Positions 6,593-45,576 of a stretch of DNA of 46,507 nucleotides are shown here, one piece after another. The notes under the pieces are model-generated. The model had not been told where the DNA came from. It searched no databases and saw only the letters and a list, made by a program, of their open reading frames with translations. The stretch comes from Sulfurovum sp. (GTDB lineage Bacteria; Campylobacterota; Campylobacteria; Campylobacterales; Sulfurovaceae). Location of the stretch: assembly GCF_015493435.1 (NCBI RefSeq), contig NZ_WGDD01000003.1:1-46507 (forward strand). The letters are read 5' to 3'. Position 1 is the stretch's first letter. The number at the start of each line of letters is the position of its first letter. The translations under genes were made by a program, and so were the position numbers.

Positions 6593-8265
6593 ATGAAACA
6601 GTTTTCGATGTAGTCATTGTAGGCTCCGGTGCGAGCGGTGGGGCAGTGGCATATACACTTTGTAATGCCGGATATAAAGTGGCTGTTCTTGAAAAGGGCA
6701 GACTGATCAACAGAGAAGAGTTCTCCAAAGATGAGATCGCCTATGCACGAAGAGATATTGTGACTCCCAGCCTTTTCGACGAGTACCATACCATCGAAGA
6801 AAAAGTGGATGGTCAGTGGATCGCAACCCCTACCTATGAATCAGGTTGGAGTTTCTGGAACGGTAATATAGTAGGAGGTTCTTCCAATTTCATGAGTGGT
6901 ATGCTGCACCGTATGCACCCCGATGACTTCCGTCTGAAAAGCAAATATGGCGCGATCGATGGTGCCAATGTAGCGGACTGGCCAATTTCATATGAGGATC
7001 TTGAGCCTTATTATGCCAAAGCGGAAGAGATCATAGGTATCTCGGGCCACTTTGAAGCCCATCCTTTTGAGCCGCCGCGGAGCAGAAAAAACTTTACGCA
7101 GCCTCCGACAAAAGAAAATATGGTTGTCAAACTGCTTGACAAAAGCTGTCAATCATTGGGTGTTAAATCACTGGTGACCCCGCGTGCGGTTCTCTCCCGG
7201 GATAAAGGAGACCGGAATGCCTGTTACTACTCCAACTTCTGCGGCAGCTACGGGTGTTCTTCCGGTGCCAAGGGAAGTGCCAGAGAAGCATTGCTCAAAC
7301 CGGCTTTGGCTACCGGTAACCTGACCCTCATGAGCAACAGTTATGTCAAAAAACTGCATGCCGGAAAAAAAGACGAGGTGGAGTATGCCATCGTTATTGA
7401 TGCGATCACAGGGAAAGAGAAAAAGGTCCGGGGCAGGTTTTTTGTTGTTGCGGCACAGGCGCATGAAAGTGCCAGGCTGCTTCTCAATTCTGCCAACAGG
7501 CATCATCCTGACGGTCTTGCCAACAGCAGCGGCACACTGGGGAAGAACCTGATATTCTCTGCGGGTGGTTCAGGGCAGGGAGAACTGCATAAAGATGCGC
7601 TCAAGGAGATCAAGTTCGAGGAATTGATGCAGACGGGGCTTTTTGTCAACCGCTCTATTCTTGACTGGTATTTTATAGATCACTGGTGGGATGGAAAATT
7701 CAAAGGGGGGCTGGTAGAATTTATGTTCGAGCATCAGAATATTATTTCACGCGCCCGAAAGAACAATGAGGAAGAAGGAAAACTGGTCTGGGGCAAGGCA
7801 CTTGGTGAAAAACTTGTCAAGCGGTTTACTCTGCAGAAAAGTATCCGGTTCGAGATCTTTAATGACTGGTTGCCCAATGACAACTGTTTTGTCTCTTTGG
7901 ATCCGACATATAAAGACAAATATGGTATGCCTGTGGGCAAACTTCGTGTTGAGGGACACCCCCATGACTTGAAGGTGGGAAACTATATTTCCAAAAAATG
8001 TGTCAAAATCCTTGAAGAGATGGGAGCAAAGAACATTGATGCTTCTGTTTCGGCTGCTCCGCCTCAGAACCTGGTTGCCGGGGGCTGCCGGTTCGGTACA
8101 GACCCTTCTATATCCGTATTGAATGCCGAATGCCGTGCACATGATGTAAAGAATCTTTATGTTGCAGATGCCTCCTTCATGCCTACAGGAGGTTCTGTTC
8201 CCTATACCTGGACCATTTATGCCAATGCCTTCCGAGTGGCTGATCATATTCTTAAAGCATTATGA
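6589..8265 (+). CDS. GMC-family FAD oxidoreductase (gluconate dehydrogenase-like large subunit)
   Basis: 558 residues. The N-terminus has the FAD dinucleotide-binding loop VVIVGSGASGG followed by VLEKG. GGSSNFMSGM near residue 100 and the C-terminal block with GTDP, NLYVADASFMPTGG and PYTWTIYANA are typical of the GMC family flavoprotein of gluconate/2-ketogluconate/fructose dehydrogenases. It oxidises an alcohol group of a sugar or related compound and passes electrons to a carrier. The usual third partner, a multihaem cytochrome c subunit, is not adjacent: the next gene is a cell-wall hydrolase. No signal peptide is seen, so it is probably exported with the Tat-bearing small subunit. Confidence 0.9.
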   Translation: MNETVFDVVIVGSGASGGAVAYTLCNAGYKVAVLEKGRLINREEFSKDEIAYARRDIVTPSLFDEYHTIEEKVDGQWIATPTYESGWSFWNGNIVGGSSNFMSGMLHRMHPDDFRLKSKYGAIDGANVADWPISYEDLEPYYAKAEEIIGISGHFEAHPFEPPRSRKNFTQPPTKENMVVKLLDKSCQSLGVKSLVTPRAVLSRDKGDRNACYYSNFCGSYGCSSGAKGSAREALLKPALATGNLTLMSNSYVKKLHAGKKDEVEYAIVIDAITGKEKKVRGRFFVVAAQAHESARLLLNSANRHHPDGLANSSGTLGKNLIFSAGGSGQGELHKDALKEIKFEELMQTGLFVNRSILDWYFIDHWWDGKFKGGLVEFMFEHQNIISRARKNNEEEGKLVWGKALGEKLVKRFTLQKSIRFEIFNDWLPNDNCFVSLDPTYKDKYGMPVGKLRVEGHPHDLKVGNYISKKCVKILEEMGAKNIDASVSAAPPQNLVAGGCRFGTDPSISVLNAECRAHDVKNLYVADASFMPTGGSVPYTWTIYANAFRVADHILKAL

Positions 8266-37800: not shown

Positions 37801-37926
37801 TCAGCGGTTCAGATCGACAAGATAGTTGAACTCTCTGGAGTGCTTCAGTTTTAGAATGCGTTTGGCACTGATGGAGGATTTACCCTCTTTTTGGCGGATG
37901 TTCTGCATGGTTTTACTCAGTTTCAT
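37801..37926 (-). CDS. 41-residue basic protein
   Basis: The reading frame MKLSKTMQNIRQKEGKSSIS... ends one base after the ybaB stop (convergent). An excellent AAAGGAG ribosome-binding site stands before the ATG at 37926, the main reason for calling it. It has many Lys/Arg residues and no membrane segment. I do not know the family. Short enough to be missed by most gene finders. Confidence 0.5.
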   Translation of the reverse strand: MKLSKTMQNIRQKEGKSSISAKRILKLKHSREFNYLVDLNR

Positions 37927-38015
37927 CTTTTCTCCTTTCTTGGTTGGTAGTCTGTCCTTATCGGACGGTGCAACTATAGCGGCCGGATATAACACAATGG
38001 TAACAAGGAGTTACA

Positions 38016-38609: not shown

Positions 38610-38641
38610 GTAATCGTTCTGTAACTATTTTTTTCTATACT
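38610..38641 (+). promoter_or_regulatory. Pho-box-like promoter of the first porin
   Basis: GTAAT (38610) and GTAAC (38621), 11 bp apart, then TATACT (38636-38641) 15 bp after the second repeat. The same spacing occurs at 41862, 43185 and 44855. Confidence 0.7.
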
Positions 38642-38674
38642 TCCGCCATCTTAAACAAAACAAGGAAGATAAAC

Positions 38675-40033
38675 ATGAAAAAAATCGTACTTTCATCCGT
38701 CGCAATTGCAACACTGGCTTTGACAGGGGCAAATGCAGACAGTACAAGTGATATTGCCGAAATGAAGGCGATGATGAAGCAGATGAACCAGCGTCTGGCG
38801 AAGCTTGAGACAGAGAACAGGCAGCTTAAAACAAAAGTAGCACAGAATAAAAAAGCAATGACTCACAAAAAGAAGTCTACGCATGTAGCGGCCAAACCGG
38901 CACATCATAAAGAAGCAACAGCTGAAGAAGAGAATGTCATGCAGAAGTTCGCGAAAGCGACACCGACATTTGCAAAAGCATCCAAGCTGAAATTCTCCGG
39001 TGTCCATTACCTTGGGTTCGTACATGGCAACAATAAAGACCATTTGACAGGAAAATCAAACAGTTATAATGATTTTGAATCAAGACGAAACTATATCCAG
39101 GTCAAGGCATATTTATTTGATGATCCAAAGAGTTACGCAAGAATTACACTTGATACCCACCAGGTAGGGAACGGTAAAGATGTCAATAACGGTGATGTTG
39201 TCAAAGGCGGCAATACGGGAGACTGGGAAGTACGTCTCAAATATGCATACCTGTATATTAATGACATTCTTCCGTATACGGGCGTAGAGTTTGGCCAGGC
39301 GCACAGACCATGGATCGATTATGAAGAGCACCATGGATGGCTGTACAGATCTATCTCAAAAACCTTTGTTGAGAAGGGACAGGATGCCGACTTTACCAAT
39401 TCTGCTGACCTTGGGGTGAACTTCAAGACAAAAACAGAATACTTTTCTTCTGAAATCGGTCTCTTTAACGGAGAAGGGTATCATGGCCTTCTTGACAAAG
39501 ACAGCAATAACGGTTTGAGTTTTGAGTGGAGACTGACAGGAAACCTGCTCGGAACCGGTGAAAAACATGTACATAAGTCAGACACTTATGCGGATGTTTC
39601 TTTTTACGGACAGTACAATACCAGTATGACGAAAAAAGGTGAATTCAACCCGGATACAGGAAAATTTGATGGTGATTTTGTATGGTACGGGTTCAATGCG
39701 GTATACAACCAGCCCGAATTCCTGATTGCCGGAAACTATTTGAAGTCCACCAAAGCGAGTCCTTCCTATAAAGGTAACGGCTGGTCAGTCAATGGTGAGT
39801 TGAGACTGCTGACCTTTGATGAAAATCTTGATGACTGGAATATTATCGGTAGATATGACAAATGGGATCTTGACAGCGGTGAGTCCAGAAAAACGTGGAT
39901 TGCCGGTCTCGGTTATACATGGAATAAAAATGTTGAATTCATTCTGAACTATGAGGATGATACCGATACACGTACTGTGGCGATCGACAATGAAACACAA
40001 AGAGTGCTCTTTACTGCAGATGTGAAGTGGTAA
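38675..40033 (+). CDS. Porin, probably phosphate-selective (OprP/OprO-like)
   Basis: 452 residues: a signal peptide (cut near ANA), a coiled-coil (about 27-60), a Lys/His-rich linker (about 65-85) and a beta-barrel. FESRRNYIQVKAYLFDDPKSYARITLDTHQ and the VRLKYAYLYINDILPYTGVEFGQAHRPWIDYEEHHGW block resemble OprP/OprO phosphate porins. It ends in VLFTADVKW, a final aromatic residue. The Pho-box-like promoter supports a phosphate role. Confidence 0.8.
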   Translation: MKKIVLSSVAIATLALTGANADSTSDIAEMKAMMKQMNQRLAKLETENRQLKTKVAQNKKAMTHKKKSTHVAAKPAHHKEATAEEENVMQKFAKATPTFAKASKLKFSGVHYLGFVHGNNKDHLTGKSNSYNDFESRRNYIQVKAYLFDDPKSYARITLDTHQVGNGKDVNNGDVVKGGNTGDWEVRLKYAYLYINDILPYTGVEFGQAHRPWIDYEEHHGWLYRSISKTFVEKGQDADFTNSADLGVNFKTKTEYFSSEIGLFNGEGYHGLLDKDSNNGLSFEWRLTGNLLGTGEKHVHKSDTYADVSFYGQYNTSMTKKGEFNPDTGKFDGDFVWYGFNAVYNQPEFLIAGNYLKSTKASPSYKGNGWSVNGELRLLTFDENLDDWNIIGRYDKWDLDSGESRKTWIAGLGYTWNKNVEFILNYEDDTDTRTVAIDNETQRVLFTADVKW

Positions 40034-40240
40034 TTTTTATATCTCTCTGTCCTCCCCATGCGGACTGACGGGGGTATCGTCTGATGATATCTCGGCCAGC
40101 CTGCTCTTGAAATATGTTTGAATACCCTTTCCCTTGTTGCACTTCAGGCAATATCTTTGCTATTCCATGCTATTATTAGAGGTGTCCTTACTCTGTCAGG
40201 GGTTGCTACAGGTATGAGTGTGTGAAGAAAGAGGGAAATA

Positions 40241-41704
40241 ATGAAACGCTTCGGAGTGAGAATTTTAACGGTTTCGTATATGGTTTTTTCCGGTGTGCCG
40301 TTGTCTGCTGCTGCGAATATACTTGAAAATACTGCTGTTAAAAAGCATCAAATACCCAACGTTCCTTCTTTTGATCTTTCCCACAAGGGAGAGGCTCTCC
40401 GATGCTACCCTTCTTCACTTGTTGAAACAAATAGCAAAAAGAAACTGGTAGAATTTGTCTGTGTGCAGCGGAACCTGGCAGAAAAACTCGTGTCTGATGC
40501 CGATGATATCTCTTCCGAGGAGGACAGGGGACGTCAGGAGACAAAGCGTTTCCAGCAGCTCTTGAAAGACAAGAAGGAAATCGGAGCCATCTATCATGTC
40601 AAGATACCGGCAGGAGATGCACGCTACCCGGGGATTGCCGCACATGAGGCAAAGCAGATGCTTCAGAACAACCATTACTTCGGCAAGTACATTCGCTGGC
40701 TTCTGCCTGCCAAATTCTATATCAGCCTGCGACCGCAATATGCGGAAATGGCCGGAAGCAAAGAAGGCAAACATTTTCATAATGCCGGTTCAAGGGCAGG
40801 GTTCTTTTATGCTTACAAATTCAATAGCGGCATCAATATTACAATGCAGTATGAGGGCAATATCAACAAGGAAAACAAGGGAAATTTTATTAACCTTTCT
40901 GAACAGTCCGATTCAAATCGAAGGTTAAGTTATCTTGCTGCGGAGTACAAGGGTATTACTTTGTTGGGAGGGAAATACTGGTCGGCCTATTACGATATAG
41001 CGGGGATAACCGATTATTTTATGGCATACGGTGCACAGGCGAGCGGAGTATACAACAATTCCGGAGACGGTTCTGTTTCCGGGACAGGCCGGGCGGACAA
41101 GGTTTTGCAGGTGCATTTCGCTATCGATGATTTTGAAAGTACCCTGCAGTATCAGTACGGGCATGCCAGTCCTGAAGGTATCGATGGTGAATTTGGCTAC
41201 AGAATGGGTGCCAGTCTTGTCTACAAGGGGTGGAAAAAGGACGGATGGAAAGCAGGAGCGGCTTTTGCCTATGGGAAGTATGATGAAATAACCGCCATGA
41301 TGCGGCAAATGGGGATCACGGGAAATGACCAGGCCTATATTGCAGGTTTGTCATTTAAAAAAAACTGTTTCCTGGTGAACGGGAACCTCTCCTATACCCG
41401 GAACCATATGAATGATGACCAGGGTGTCTATTTTGACGGAGTAGGTGTAGAAATTTATGCCCGATATGATGTGAGCAGCCAGATCCGTACGGTAGCAGGT
41501 ATCAACTGGCTGAAACCCACAGGGGGCTATCGGGGGCAATACGAAATAAAAAAAGGTATCCTCTCTTTTCAATATACATTCGGCAAAAGAACATTCGATG
41601 ATGTGGTCTATCTGGAGATCGCACTGCCGCACGGCTCCTTTGCTTCCGGAGTCCGGGGCAATACGAGTGTAGCCATAGGGTTACGCTATCTCATCGACAT
41701 TTAG
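40241..41704 (+). CDS. Outer-membrane porin-like protein
   Basis: 487 residues with a signal peptide (cut near SAA). An N-terminal extension (about 25-150) with two Cys residues precedes a barrel of many alternating strands (FYAYKFNSGINITMQYEGN, LSYLAAEYKGITLLGGKYW, ...TSVAIGLRYLIDI). It resembles general porins but I cannot name a substrate. Lying between two porins that have Pho-type boxes, it has no such box itself, so it may be regulated otherwise. The ATG at 40241 follows AAGAGGGAAA. Confidence 0.7.
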   Translation: MKRFGVRILTVSYMVFSGVPLSAAANILENTAVKKHQIPNVPSFDLSHKGEALRCYPSSLVETNSKKKLVEFVCVQRNLAEKLVSDADDISSEEDRGRQETKRFQQLLKDKKEIGAIYHVKIPAGDARYPGIAAHEAKQMLQNNHYFGKYIRWLLPAKFYISLRPQYAEMAGSKEGKHFHNAGSRAGFFYAYKFNSGINITMQYEGNINKENKGNFINLSEQSDSNRRLSYLAAEYKGITLLGGKYWSAYYDIAGITDYFMAYGAQASGVYNNSGDGSVSGTGRADKVLQVHFAIDDFESTLQYQYGHASPEGIDGEFGYRMGASLVYKGWKKDGWKAGAAFAYGKYDEITAMMRQMGITGNDQAYIAGLSFKKNCFLVNGNLSYTRNHMNDDQGVYFDGVGVEIYARYDVSSQIRTVAGINWLKPTGGYRGQYEIKKGILSFQYTFGKRTFDDVVYLEIALPHGSFASGVRGNTSVAIGLRYLIDI

Positions 41705-41861
41705 TCATACATTATGAAGGATAATATGTAACACTTTTTGTACATAAATAAATTTTTTATTATATTTATGAATAAATATATTTTACAAATATAATTTTAC
41801 TGTTACAAATAGTCACATATATTTAACCAAATATTAAAAATTACAAATAGTTACACTTTTA

Positions 41862-41893
41862 GTAATACTTTTGTAACTATTTGCTCCTATATT
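41862..41893 (+). promoter_or_regulatory. Pho-box-like promoter of the second phosphate-linked porin
   Basis: GTAAT (41862), GTAAC (41873), TATATT (41888-41893), with 11- and 15-bp spacings. Upstream, 41705-41861 is extremely AT-rich with more TTAC/GTAA motifs and no gene. Confidence 0.7.
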
Positions 41894-41924
41894 GTTTCCA
41901 AATCAAATACAGAGAAGAGACAAG

Positions 41925-43097
41925 ATGAAAAAAATCATATTATCAATGGCAGCAATAGCAACAGTATCCATGGGTGCGTCAGATGTCAAACACCCACATG
42001 AACGAATAGAGACAAAAAAACAGAAAATACTAGAAACTGAAACCCAAGTACCCGTAGCTGAAAAAAGTATTTTAGACAGATTTCATTTCAAAGGTGATTT
42101 AAGATTACGGTATGAGAGTATCGAGAGAGATGACGCTGATAATAAGTATAGAAATAGATATCGTTTAAGACTAGGCTTAACGACTGTTATAACAGATAAT
42201 CTTGAATTTAAGGTTGGTATGAGATCTGGTTTTGCAAACCCAACTTCAGGAAACCAAACATTCCTTGATGACGAGCCTTTGCGTGACTACTTTTTTCAGT
42301 CGCTTAGATTCAATGTTCTAGGTTTCAAGTATAAGTCTGATAGCTCTACTTACGAAATAGGTAGACTACCATACATGATGTATAGACCTATAAAAACACA
42401 ACTTATTTGGGATAATGATGTTTCACTGAACGGGGTAAACTATCAGTATAAAGATGACACAAAGATTATCACTTTAGGTGTAAACCAACCAACTTTGGAA
42501 GAAGCAGCTTCAAACGATGCAAATGTTGTTAACCTCATTATAGCACAATATGTACATAAGTCTGAATTAGATTTTGCAAAACTTTACTTGGGTACCGGTC
42601 TCTATTATTATGATGGACTCAAAGGCAACATACCGCTTTTTGGTAAAGGAAAAGGTAACACCTTGGATGAAAATGGTTTGTATGTAAATAATTATCATCT
42701 TATAGAAGGATTTGGTGAGCTGCAGTTTAACGATGTATTTGGTATGCCGCTAAAAGTCGCAGCAGGGGTTGTGTATAACTTTGGGGCAGACGACAATAAC
42801 TTTGGGTACGACTTGGCAGTAATGCTGGGTAAGGCGAAACATGTTGGCGACTGGCAGGTAAAATACTCCTACACAGATCTTCAAGCGGATGCGGCATTTG
42901 GTGCATATTCCGATTCGGATAACTTTGGTGGGGGTACTGCCGCAAAAGGTTCTGCAATCAGAGCAAAATACAAAATGGGCAAAAACCTCTACCTTGCCGG
43001 CAACTTCTTCTTCGATACACTCTATGCAAGCAAAAGTAAAACAGGTGCAGAAGCAGACTACGAGCGTGTACAGCTGGATGCAATCATCAAGTTCTAA
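41925..43097 (+). CDS. Beta-barrel outer-membrane porin (Pho-type promoter)
   Basis: 390 residues from the ATG at 41925 (a longer frame lacks a signal peptide at its start). Signal peptide, short charged linker, then a barrel: FHFKGDLRLRYESIERDDADNKYRNRYRLRLGL, NLEFKVGMRSGFA, ... and a C-terminal VQLDAIIKF with the terminal Phe. Resembles putative porins of Campylobacterota. The 5' part is AT-richer than the 3' part (from about 42780), as if two alleles had recombined. A terminator follows. Confidence 0.75.
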   Translation: MKKIILSMAAIATVSMGASDVKHPHERIETKKQKILETETQVPVAEKSILDRFHFKGDLRLRYESIERDDADNKYRNRYRLRLGLTTVITDNLEFKVGMRSGFANPTSGNQTFLDDEPLRDYFFQSLRFNVLGFKYKSDSSTYEIGRLPYMMYRPIKTQLIWDNDVSLNGVNYQYKDDTKIITLGVNQPTLEEAASNDANVVNLIIAQYVHKSELDFAKLYLGTGLYYYDGLKGNIPLFGKGKGNTLDENGLYVNNYHLIEGFGELQFNDVFGMPLKVAAGVVYNFGADDNNFGYDLAVMLGKAKHVGDWQVKYSYTDLQADAAFGAYSDSDNFGGGTAAKGSAIRAKYKMGKNLYLAGNFFFDTLYASKSKTGAEADYERVQLDAIIKF

Positions 43098-43111
43098 CAT
43101 ATACATTTCAT

Positions 43112-43131
43112 AGATGGGCTTTGGCCCGTCT
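43112..43131 (+). terminator. Terminator after the porin
   Basis: AGATGGGC (43112-43119) pairs with GCCCGTCT (43124-43131), loop TTTG, followed by TTCTTCCATTTTTTT. Confidence 0.8.
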
Positions 43132-43184
43132 TTCTTCCATTTTTTTCACACTTTACATTTCTTTTTTTATTTGATTACAATTTG

Positions 43185-43216
43185 GTAACAAAATTGTAAT
43201 ACTTTTTTCCTATACT
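43185..43216 (+). promoter_or_regulatory. Pho-box-like promoter of the PiT transporter
   Basis: GTAAC (43185), GTAAT (43196), TATACT (43211-43216). A third upstream TTAC repeat at 43175 keeps the 11-bp register, so three tandem half-sites may be present. Confidence 0.72.
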
Positions 43217-43242
43217 CCCGAAATTTTATACTTCAGGGGATA

Positions 43243-44790
43243 ATGATGAACAATACGATCAAACTTCTACTCGGTGCCGCTTTTGCTGCAGCAGTGGCTT
43301 TTTACGCCAGCAGTATCATAGGACACGGCGTCCATGCGGGCTTTATGGTACTTGCTGCGGTGTTCGGTGCCTATATGGCCATGAACATCGGTGCGAACGA
43401 TGTTGCGAACAATGTGGGGCCGGCTTACGGTTCCGGAGCGATCTCCATGGGCGGGGTTATTGTCATTGCGGCGATCTTTGAAGCGACGGGTGCGCTGGTT
43501 GCCGGCGGTGATGTGGTCGGTACCATTAAAAAGGGTATTATCGATCCGGCAGCGTTCGGGAACGATCCGATGCTGTTCGTGTATGCCATGTCTGCCGCAC
43601 TGCTTGCCGCAGCGCTCTGGCTTAACCTTGCTACCTGGCTTAAGGCGCCGGTCTCCACGACGCACTCCATTGTCGGCGGTGTTGTCGGTGCAGGAATCGC
43701 AGCAGGCGGATTTGCCATCGTTTCCTGGGGAACTATGGGCAAGATTGTAGCGTCATGGGTGATCTCTCCGGTCCTTGGCGGTGTGATCGCAGCGATTTTT
43801 CTCTATATCATCAAGTCCCAGATCCTTTACCGGAAAGATATGCGCACGGCAGCCAAAAAAGTGGTTCCGGTCCTTGTGGCGGTTATGGCAGCGGCATTTC
43901 TGACCTACCTGACGCTCAAAGGGCTCAAGCATGTGTGGAAAGACTTTACTGAAGTGTTCAGCTTTTTGCCGCAGACGAAAAAACCGACCTTTCTGGCAGC
44001 TCTGATCATTGGTCTGATCGGCGGATTTATCACTTATCTGATCGTGAAACCCAGAACCCTCAAACGTGTGGAGAATGGGCTTGGTGAGAGCAGGGCTGAC
44101 ATCAATATACTGTTCGGTATTCCACTTGTTTTTGCTGCCATATTCCTCAGTTTCGCCCACGGGGCGAATGACGTTGCCAATGCCGTCGGTCCATTGGCCG
44201 CAGTGTACGATGCCCTGGCACATGCTGTCATCGCGAAAAAAGCGGCCATTCCTCTGTGGGTCATGGTGGTAGGCGGGGTGGGTATCTCTATCGGTCTTGC
44301 CCTGTATGGACCGAGGCTCATCAGAACCGTTGGTTCGGAAATTACGGAACTCGATGAGATGAGAGCTTTTTCCATCATGATGGCCGCGGCGATCACCGTG
44401 ATCATTGCGTCACAGCTCGGTCTTCCTGTATCTTCAACCCATATTGCGGTCGGTGCGGTATTCGGTGTCGGGTTCCTTCGCGAATGGCTTGACAGCAAGA
44501 ATATGGACGAGAAGCAGAAAAAACTGCAGATCGAAGTGGAAAAACTTGATGCAATCAAACGTGAACTTGAAGCGCTCAAAAGCGAAGAGGATTACAAAAA
44601 GCAGGTTGAGCTTATCGGTGCACAGAAAAGTCAGAAGAAAAAGGTAAAAAGTCTTAAGCGTTCACTGCGTGAGAACTATGTCAAACGCGGTATGGTAAAA
44701 AAAATTATTGCTGCGTGGGTCATTACCGTACCTGCGGCAGCCTTCCTCTCTGCGATCATTTTCTATGTGATCAAAGGGTTTGCTTCTTGA
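43243..44790 (+). CDS. PiT-family inorganic phosphate transporter
   Basis: 515 residues. Two copies of the PiT signature: NIGANDVANNVGPA near residue 48 and AHGANDVANAVGPL near 307, plus two STTHSIVGG/SSTHIAVG segments. About 10-11 membrane helices. A charged coiled-coil stretch near 415-490 lies between the last helices. It imports phosphate with H+ or Na+. ATG at 43243 or 43246, both downstream of AGGGGA. The PhoB-like gene follows. Confidence 0.95.
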   Translation: MMNNTIKLLLGAAFAAAVAFYASSIIGHGVHAGFMVLAAVFGAYMAMNIGANDVANNVGPAYGSGAISMGGVIVIAAIFEATGALVAGGDVVGTIKKGIIDPAAFGNDPMLFVYAMSAALLAAALWLNLATWLKAPVSTTHSIVGGVVGAGIAAGGFAIVSWGTMGKIVASWVISPVLGGVIAAIFLYIIKSQILYRKDMRTAAKKVVPVLVAVMAAAFLTYLTLKGLKHVWKDFTEVFSFLPQTKKPTFLAALIIGLIGGFITYLIVKPRTLKRVENGLGESRADINILFGIPLVFAAIFLSFAHGANDVANAVGPLAAVYDALAHAVIAKKAAIPLWVMVVGGVGISIGLALYGPRLIRTVGSEITELDEMRAFSIMMAAAITVIIASQLGLPVSSTHIAVGAVFGVGFLREWLDSKNMDEKQKKLQIEVEKLDAIKRELEALKSEEDYKKQVELIGAQKSQKKKVKSLKRSLRENYVKRGMVKKIIAAWVITVPAAAFLSAIIFYVIKGFAS

Positions 44791-44806
44791 CCACGGAATC
44801 TGTTCT

Positions 44807-44820
44807 GACGGAGTTCCGTC
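44807..44820 (+). terminator. Weak hairpin after the PiT gene
   Basis: GACGGA-GT-TCCGTC (44807-44820) without a T tract. It may slow rather than end transcription into the response-regulator gene. Confidence 0.3.
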
Positions 44821-44854
44821 GGAATATTGCATCCACTTCCCCCTGCACAGAACG

Positions 44855-44886
44855 GTAATAGAAATGTTATCAATACATATTATGAT
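44855..44886 (+). promoter_or_regulatory. Pho-box-like promoter of the response regulator
   Basis: GTAAT (44855), GTTAT (44866), TATGAT (44881-44886) with the same 11- and 15-bp spacings. Start codon only 6 bp after the -10, so the transcript would have almost no leader. Confidence 0.6.
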
Positions 44887-44892
44887 ACTGTT

Positions 44893-45576
44893 ATGCAAAA
44901 GAAAAATATAGAAATTGTTATCATTGAAGATGAGGCTGATATACTGGAACTGCTTGAGTATCATCTTGCCAAAGAAGGCTATGATACAACAGGATTCCTT
45001 TCTACCGAAAATGTGGAACAGTTCCTCGAAGAAGAGAATCCTGCACTGATGATCGTAGACCGTAACCTTCCCGGTATCGAGGGAAGTGCGTTCGTCAGGC
45101 AGATGCGGGAGATCGGGTATGATGTTCCTGTGATCTTTCTGACGGCAAGGGACAAAGATGGGGATGTGGAAGAAGGGTTTTTGGCCGGAGGTGATGACTA
45201 TATGACCAAACCTTTCAATGCCAGGGAGCTGTTGCTTCGTATTCAGGCCATTTTAAAAAGAAAAGGCGGGGGCAGTACCGACAAAATAAAATACAGAGAT
45301 ATCCTGCTTGACTTGAAGAGCCGTGAAATCTATGTAGAAGAACAGCTCGTAGAGTTGACCAACCTCGAATTCAAACTGCTGCATACGTTCATCAAAAATC
45401 CCCACCAGCCTCTTGACAGAGATTTTTTGAGAGATGAAGTGTGGGGCGATGATTCTGTAGGTTTTCATGACAAAACCATTAATGTGGCTATGAACCGGCT
45501 TAAAAAGAAAATAGACCCCAGTGGGGAAAAAGAGTATTTTGCTCCTGTGTGGGGTGTAGGATATAGACTGGTATGA
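44893..45576 (+). CDS. PhoB/OmpR-type response regulator
   Basis: 227 residues. Receiver domain: acidic pair E12/D13, phosphate-accepting Asp56 (MIVDRNLPG), Thr in FLTARD and Lys in MTKPF. The C-terminal winged helix of the OmpR/PhoB class (about 130-227) ends in VWGVGYRLV. Its gene is directly behind PiT and has a Pho-type box itself, so it is probably the phosphate regulator (PhoB/PhosR equivalent) and controls itself. No histidine kinase follows. I chose the ATG at 44893, where the family begins. Confidence 0.85.
   Translation: MQKKNIEIVIIEDEADILELLEYHLAKEGYDTTGFLSTENVEQFLEEENPALMIVDRNLPGIEGSAFVRQMREIGYDVPVIFLTARDKDGDVEEGFLAGGDDYMTKPFNARELLLRIQAILKRKGGGSTDKIKYRDILLDLKSREIYVEEQLVELTNLEFKLLHTFIKNPHQPLDRDFLRDEVWGDDSVGFHDKTINVAMNRLKKKIDPSGEKEYFAPVWGVGYRLV

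Follow-up and report, generated by a model that had tools for sequence, protein, structure and literature searches.

We analysed a stretch of 46,507 nucleotides (nt) from Sulfurovum sp. (contig NZ_WGDD01000003.1; hereafter the window), which is contig C3 of a 2.16-Mb genome assembled in 61 contigs (genome G000). The window carries a cluster of two porin-like genes, a gene for a PiT-type phosphate transporter and a gene for a PhoB-like response regulator, each preceded by two 5-base-pair (bp) repeats (arm 1 and arm 2) and a −10 hexamer. The initial annotation had read this motif as a Pho box. We observed strong support for this reading, as the box also precedes the pstS and pstC genes of the same genome, is conserved in relatives and has the geometry of the E. 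coli phoA promoter. We consider it highly likely that the motif is a Pho box occupying the −35 position in a Sulfurovum-type bacterium, and that it would mark a regulon activated at low phosphate. The features concerned are as follows (aa, amino acids; ORF, open reading frame).

37801..37926, minus strand: 41-aa basic small protein, divergent from an ankyrin gene; an ORF with relatives
37973..38004, minus strand: fifth putative Pho box and −10, GTTAC-N6-GTTAT-N10-TATAGT; 46 nt to the ATG; box at 19/20 homologous loci
38610..38641, plus strand: putative Pho box and −10 of gene 38675, GTAAT-N6-GTAAC-N10-TATACT; 33 nt to the ATG; in 6/6 scored relatives, own genome included
38675..40033, plus strand: porin-like outer-membrane protein, 452 aa; a porin by look, without a family match
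41862..41893, plus strand: putative Pho box and −10 of porin gene 41925, GTAAT-N6-GTAAC-N10-TATATT; 31 nt to the ATG; in 14/17 relatives, own genome included
41925..43097, plus strand: porin (PF16930, Porin_5)
43185..43216, plus strand: putative Pho box and −10 of the PiT gene, GTAAC-N6-GTAAT-N10-TATACT; 26 nt to the ATG; in 25/33 relatives, own genome included
43243..44790, plus strand: PiT-type phosphate transporter (PF01384, 371.7 bits)
44855..44886, plus strand: putative Pho box and −10 of the response-regulator gene, GTAAT-N6-GTTAT-N10-TATGAT; 6 nt to the ATG; predicted leaderless
44893..45576, plus strand: PhoB-like orphan response regulator, 227 aa, with receiver and winged-helix domains

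The geometry of 5 bp, N6, 5 bp, N10 and −10 hexamer is unchanged at 38610, 41862, 43185 and 44855, and the fixed spacing claimed for these four promoters was thus borne out at every coordinate. The letters originally given, GTAAY-N6-GTAAY-N10-TATAYT, are exact at the first three positions and have three mismatches at 44855, which reads GTAAT-AGAAAT-GTTAT-CAATACATAT-TATGAT. Because this last promoter fits only as GTTAT and TATGAT, the core was widened to GTWWY. The strict pattern has three exact matches in the window against a mean of 0.00 in 100 dinucleotide shuffles (eight against 2.7 when up to three mismatches were allowed), and the form GTWWY-N6-GTWWY-N10-TATRNT is found five times where 0.02 occurrences are expected. 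The additional site, at 38004-37973 on the minus strand, had been missed earlier and lies upstream of the 41-aa ORF. The spacers of the window boxes are A/T-rich.

The gene identities first proposed stood for the PiT transporter and the 41925 porin, both of which are matched by Pfam. The 38675 protein is a porin by look only: it has no Pfam or NCBIfam match and no useful PDB match, and the search for a porin identity through solved structures yielded nothing that could be used, as was also the case for 41925. The regulator is PhoB-like in its receiver and winged-helix domains, and scores 169.3 bits on the PhoB equivalog model TIGR02154, whose cut-off is 296.2. The two porin genes are separated by a 487-aa ORF (40241-41704) that has no box and no family match and is single-copy among the fetched loci.

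The box in the same genome and in relatives

A search of the genome with the fixed spacing, which had been proposed as a check, gave four strict matches, three of them in the window, and none in the reversed control. The fourth (C47:39081, minus strand) lies ∼230 nt before a gene that we read as soxC-like, and not before a phosphate gene. The GTWWY/TATRNT pattern gave 10 matches genome-wide against one in the reversed sequence; the loosest form, with TANNNT as the −10, gave 20 against 13 and therefore needs gene context. Seven of these 20 are the five window boxes and two boxes on contig C61, before pstS (GTAAT-N6-GTTTC-N10-TATACT) and before pstC. The gene order on C61 is acyltransferase-pstSCAB-phoU-regulator, where the acyltransferase is OlsF, the ornithine-lipid synthase (774 bits, cut-off 620). 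Its operon is preceded by GTAGT-N6-GTTAT-N10-TATGAT, which has a single mismatch, in arm 1, and stands before the first gene, a 69-aa ORF.

L018, 12620-12589, minus strand: putative Pho box of the olsF operon
L018, 10637-12352, minus strand: OlsF gene; the leading ORF of the operon is conserved (69-73 aa)

Eight promoters of this genome (the five in the window and those of pstS, pstC and the olsF operon) thus share one geometry.

We then asked how far the box is conserved. The window regulator matches records of Sulfurovum and other Campylobacterota at up to 80% identity, and 78 loci of named relatives were retrieved by regulator similarity, which together with L018 and the window made a set of 80. 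The box was scored as GTWWY-N6-GTWWY-N10-TANNNT in 300-bp upstream regions. Matches in relatives were left out when they covered less than half of the query, started after query residue 60 or lay less than 100 bp from the locus start, as were regulator rows of less than 52% identity and pstB rows of less than 60%. In many relatives the porin, PiT and regulator genes and pstSCAB-phoU-regulator form a single cluster.

The box was present in 131 of the 175 promoter regions of these relatives (the two porins, 6/6 and 14/17; PiT, 25/33; window-type regulator, 35/59; pstS, 29/33; pstC, 22/27), whereas only three of 123 regions before operon-internal genes had it (pstA, 0/29; pstB, 1/31; phoU, 1/31; operon-internal regulator, 1/32). 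The reversed-sequence control gave 0 in every gene class. The spacing is equally sharp: a 6-bp gap between the arms was found in 136 of the 175 regions and any other gap in at most 33, and a distance of 10 bp from arm 2 to the −10 in 131, with at most 27 for any other. Reverse-complement counts were also raised at a spacing of 6 (49/175), which we attribute to GTAAC and GTTAC being mutual complements. Over the 80 loci we counted 208 box matches against eight in the reversed sequence; 161 of them stand before query-set genes, and the other 47 include boxes before PsiE-type proteins (PF06146, 33.8 bits, cut-off 23.9; boxed in three relatives), a calcineurin-like phosphoesterase and the small 41-42-aa ORF. 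The phosphoesterase, which is possibly a lipid phosphoesterase, stands behind a Pho box in L040, L042, L047, L049 and L056.

These counts bear on the simplest alternative, namely that the promoters are merely A/T-rich with an extended −10 and that the repeat arose by chance. The A/T-rich spacers would suit it, as would a phylum-wide GTWWY count without gene context, which was not obviously above its reversed control (columns not summed) and proved not to discriminate as a test. Against this, the shuffles expect only 0.00–0.02 matches, the reversed control gave none in 175 regions and counts peak only at the 6-bp and 10-bp gaps. The reversed control in relatives and the spacing peaks refute the chance explanation, to which we give next to no weight. 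The results point to a pair of direct repeats set 11 bp apart, standing at −35 with the distance to the −10 fixed as in E. coli phoA, and conserved in position before pst and other phosphate genes.

A second motif class

The initial annotation had held that the reading would fail if the motif occurred equally before unrelated genes, and this is partly the case. Across 100 genomes of the family, the strict pattern occurred in 40, with 69 matches against, by our count, two in the reversed control. Arm 2 is preceded by T in 42 of the 69 (the Pho type) and by a pair of purines ([AG][AG]) in 17, which form a second class; the view that the motif is exclusive to Pho genes was given up. Ten loci of the second or a similar type, opened as chosen examples (L178-L187), showed no recognisable phosphate gene; their genes encode lipoproteins, small secreted proteins, two-component proteins and others. 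In the genome under study five sites belong to this class (C1:19142, C32:40342, C32:41027, C46:9217 and C47:39081), of which C46:9217 precedes the gene of a 294-aa lipoprotein adjoining a regulator gene. The strict pattern covers at least two regulons, with T before arm 2 and an A/T-rich spacer marking the Pho type, and the second class is probably another OmpR-family regulon.

It could be argued from these matches that the window boxes themselves are sites of another OmpR/PhoB-family regulator, such as one for envelope or redox stress, with the same geometry, and that the phosphate genes are only part of its broader regulon. The lipoprotein, small secreted protein and two-component genes behind the 17 matches, and the soxC-like, C46, C32 and C1 sites of this genome, would agree with such a view. 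However, the second class has a different spacer and gave no match in the 80 Pho loci, while the window boxes carry the T of the Pho type ahead of arm 2 and, as in the relatives, lie with phosphate genes. We regard this alternative as unlikely, and return to the Pho box.

Candidate regulators, the regulator message and the small protein

The pst-operon regulator of C61 is 63% identical to the 44893 regulator, and would be an equal candidate for binding the box. Both were favoured over regulators of this genome that score better on the PhoB model, because of their gene context. In the accessible text of a study of PhoB (PMC3973317), Arg201 contacts a guanine, Thr194 and Val197 contact thymines, and Arg219 makes base contacts in the stretch that separates the half-sites. 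In our alignment, Arg201, the guanine contact, and Val197 are kept in both regulators; Thr194 is kept in 44893 and is Ala in the C61 paralogue.

The regulator promoter has a further property. A near box was present for 34 window-type regulators. In 32 of them the −10 ends 5–7 nt before the start codon, and the two exceptions (L031 and L080) are start-calling errors, where inspection by eye gave 6 and 5 nt, and hence 34/34. Matches of at least 4 nt to a ribosome site were found in 12/34 regulators, several of them within the −10 hexamer, compared with 29/29 pstS and 23/25 PiT genes. These features suggest that the regulator mRNA is probably leaderless. The boxes of PsiE and of some of the phosphoesterases also end 5–7 nt before the ATG, the −10 of the latter sitting 6–7 nt upstream in four of the five loci (L040, L042, L049 and L056). 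We had considered pstC as a second leaderless gene and dropped it, as its homology-based start lies upstream of the real ATG; for this reason its ribosome-site counts were left out. At L031 (∼7913-7978) we also noted that 24 nt where the regulator gene begins are duplicated in tandem, which gives two in-frame ATGs.

The 41-aa ORF behind the fifth box belongs to a family of basic proteins of 41-42 aa that have no Pfam or NCBIfam match. With the L038 member as query, relatives were found in 20 of 80 genomes of the family, in two of 11 genera. The ankyrin gene adjoins the small-protein gene at all 20 loci (L131-L150), and a box lies within 200 bp upstream in 19 of them, mostly at −68 to −80. Codon differences are concentrated at third positions (4271, against 2324 and 2132 at the other two; pairwise counts, which are not independent), and for this reason the protein is very probably translated.

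From the above we propose the following working of the system. The box would consist of two head-to-tail half-sites (TGTWWY with an A/T-rich stretch) 11 bp apart, which would replace the −35 element at a distance of 10 bp from the −10. Under phosphate scarcity, the phosphorylated PhoB-like regulator (44893 and/or the C61 paralogue) most likely occupies the box as a tandem dimer and would recruit the sigma-70 polymerase. This would switch on the two porins, PiT, PstSC(AB)-PhoU-regulator, the ornithine-lipid synthase, the 41-aa protein and the regulator itself, whose promoter, ending at the start codon, would yield a leaderless, self-activated message. A site over the −35 region could instead block the polymerase, and the boxes would then be repressor sites occupied when phosphate is plentiful. 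We consider this very unlikely, as their position equals that of E. coli activator sites such as that of phoA, and no −35 hexamer besides the box was seen in the window promoters, by eye and not by a scan.

Several observations weigh against a Pho box read by these regulators. The GTWWY box is absent from 24/59 regulators, 8/33 PiT, 4/33 pstS and 5/27 pstC regions, of which a GTHWY pattern brings back two regulators and two pstS. The strict motif precedes non-Pho genes too, as about a quarter of the family matches fall into the second class. Three other regulators of this genome (C42:59241, C14:15115 and C14:11697) score 174–185 bits on the PhoB model, none reaching the cut-off. The wing residue Arg219 of PhoB is not kept, Trp taking the place of this minor-groove Arg. 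We found no linked histidine kinase in the Sulfurovum clusters examined or at the loci of this genome. A kinase is adjacent in Sulfurospirillum (L099) and in other families; the best match here to that of the Sulfurospirillum orthologue (C54:137816-138703, 45%, HisKA and HATPase) is unlinked.

Taking these points together, we still favour a Pho box at −35. More tentatively, and with slightly less than even confidence, we suggest that the Sulfurovaceae control their phosphate response through two kinase-unlinked PhoB-like regulators that recognise a relaxed TGTWWY half-site and have a Trp wing, one of them made from a leaderless, self-activated message, and that their regulon may include a 41-42-aa phosphate-adaptation protein. 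With this proposal, the Pho regulon of a group of vent and sediment bacteria that oxidise sulfur becomes testable. The uncharacterised small protein is given a clear expression prediction, and the boxed olsF operon predicts phosphorus-free ornithine lipids, that is, lipid replacement, at low phosphate.

Comparison with known Pho systems

The Pho box is an element of a kind already known, and the Sulfurovum letters are a lineage variant of it; what is new here is the regulator −10 abutting the ATG, the boxed 41-42-aa family and the Trp in place of Arg219. Among the titles and abstracts that searches of open-licence literature listed for the Pho regulon or PhoB with Sulfurovum, the Pho regulon with Sulfurimonas, and PhosR, pstS or the Pho box with Epsilonproteobacteria, none describes the Sulfurovum box, and in the accessible text of the S. 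lithotrophicum genome paper the 'PhoB' matches are to the program Phobius.

The E. coli Pho regulon also comprises pst, porin and psiE genes, and this gene set is common to it and the Sulfurovum box. The phoA promoter of E. coli (GTCAT-N6-GTCAC-N10-TATAGT) has a geometry identical to that of the Sulfurovum box, which bears out the 11-bp register noted at the outset. In phoE (GTAAT-N6-TTAAC-N10-TAAAAA) the cores are likewise 11 bp apart and 10 bp separate the second one from the −10, a distance that is also found in pstS (GTCAC-N10-TATTTT), whereas the −10 spacing of the phoB promoter is not a clean fit. The letters differ: base 3 of the core is as a rule A or T in Sulfurovum and C in E. coli, and the E. 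coli core TGTCA gives way to GTWWY in this genome, with GTCAY arms only at L026 and L027. At these two loci, from Sulfurovum metagenome-assembled genomes, GTCAY forms the first arm of the boxes before the regulator and pstS, and both genomes combine GTCAT with GTTTC. According to the accessible text of PMC4415409, the Pho-box core varies between species.

The PhosR box of C. jejuni, reportedly given by Wosten in 2006 as the consensus GTTTC-N6-GTTTC, shares the 11-bp register. In Sulfurovum, however, GTAAY or GTTAY makes up the first arm and the majority of second arms. In the genome under study GTTTC does not occupy both arms; it is found only as arm 2 of pstS. Arm 2 is mostly GTAAC before the porins, GTAAT before PiT, GTTAT before the regulator, GTTTC, as in the PhosR arm, before pstS and GTTAC before pstC. 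The core that had been set apart from those of E. coli and C. jejuni as GTAAC is thus better described as GTWWY or GTHWY, grading into GTCAY and GTTTC arms; GTAAY is too narrow.

In a genome of another family (family f3, genus g20), which is probably a Campylobacter, pstS and pstC have GTTTC-N6-GTTTC-N10-TATACT. Among ten regions of other families picked by eye from the phylum-wide count, a biased choice, six had a box of the same geometry beside pst genes (L151, L153, L154, L155, L156 and L158) and the remaining four lacked this combination. In another family we also noted, at L160 (6519, minus strand), a GTAAY box that precedes the gene of a DeoR-type regulator and an ATP-binding cassette (ABC) uptake operon, both named by look; uptake of phosphorus compounds by this operon is possible.

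The regulators differ from PhoB along with their sites. PhoB residues Asp196, His198 and Arg200 are Asn, Ala and Asn in the window regulator and in 69 of 92 Sulfurovum-type regulators, and position 219 is Trp in 87, Arg in one and not parsed in four; the aligned regulators of other families have Arg219, as does that of genome G007, which belongs to the same family. The five f3/g20 regulators have replacements at 200 (Thr or Ile) and 203 (Arg), and four of them also have Ile at 197; since they represent one lineage, this is only a correlation. The promoter geometry is constant from E. coli to Campylobacterota while the half-sites drift (GTCAY, GTAAY, GTTAY and GTTTC), and this drift alongside residue changes in the regulator provides a natural series on how winged-helix specificity changes.

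C. jejuni and H. pylori are known to make leaderless messages (PMC3847290), which, in the accessible text of that study, have a TAnAaT −10 directly at the ATG and no ribosome-binding site, as predicted here. That text names no phosphate regulator among them, whereas the putative leaderless start in Sulfurovum is linked to a Pho box through which the regulator would control itself.

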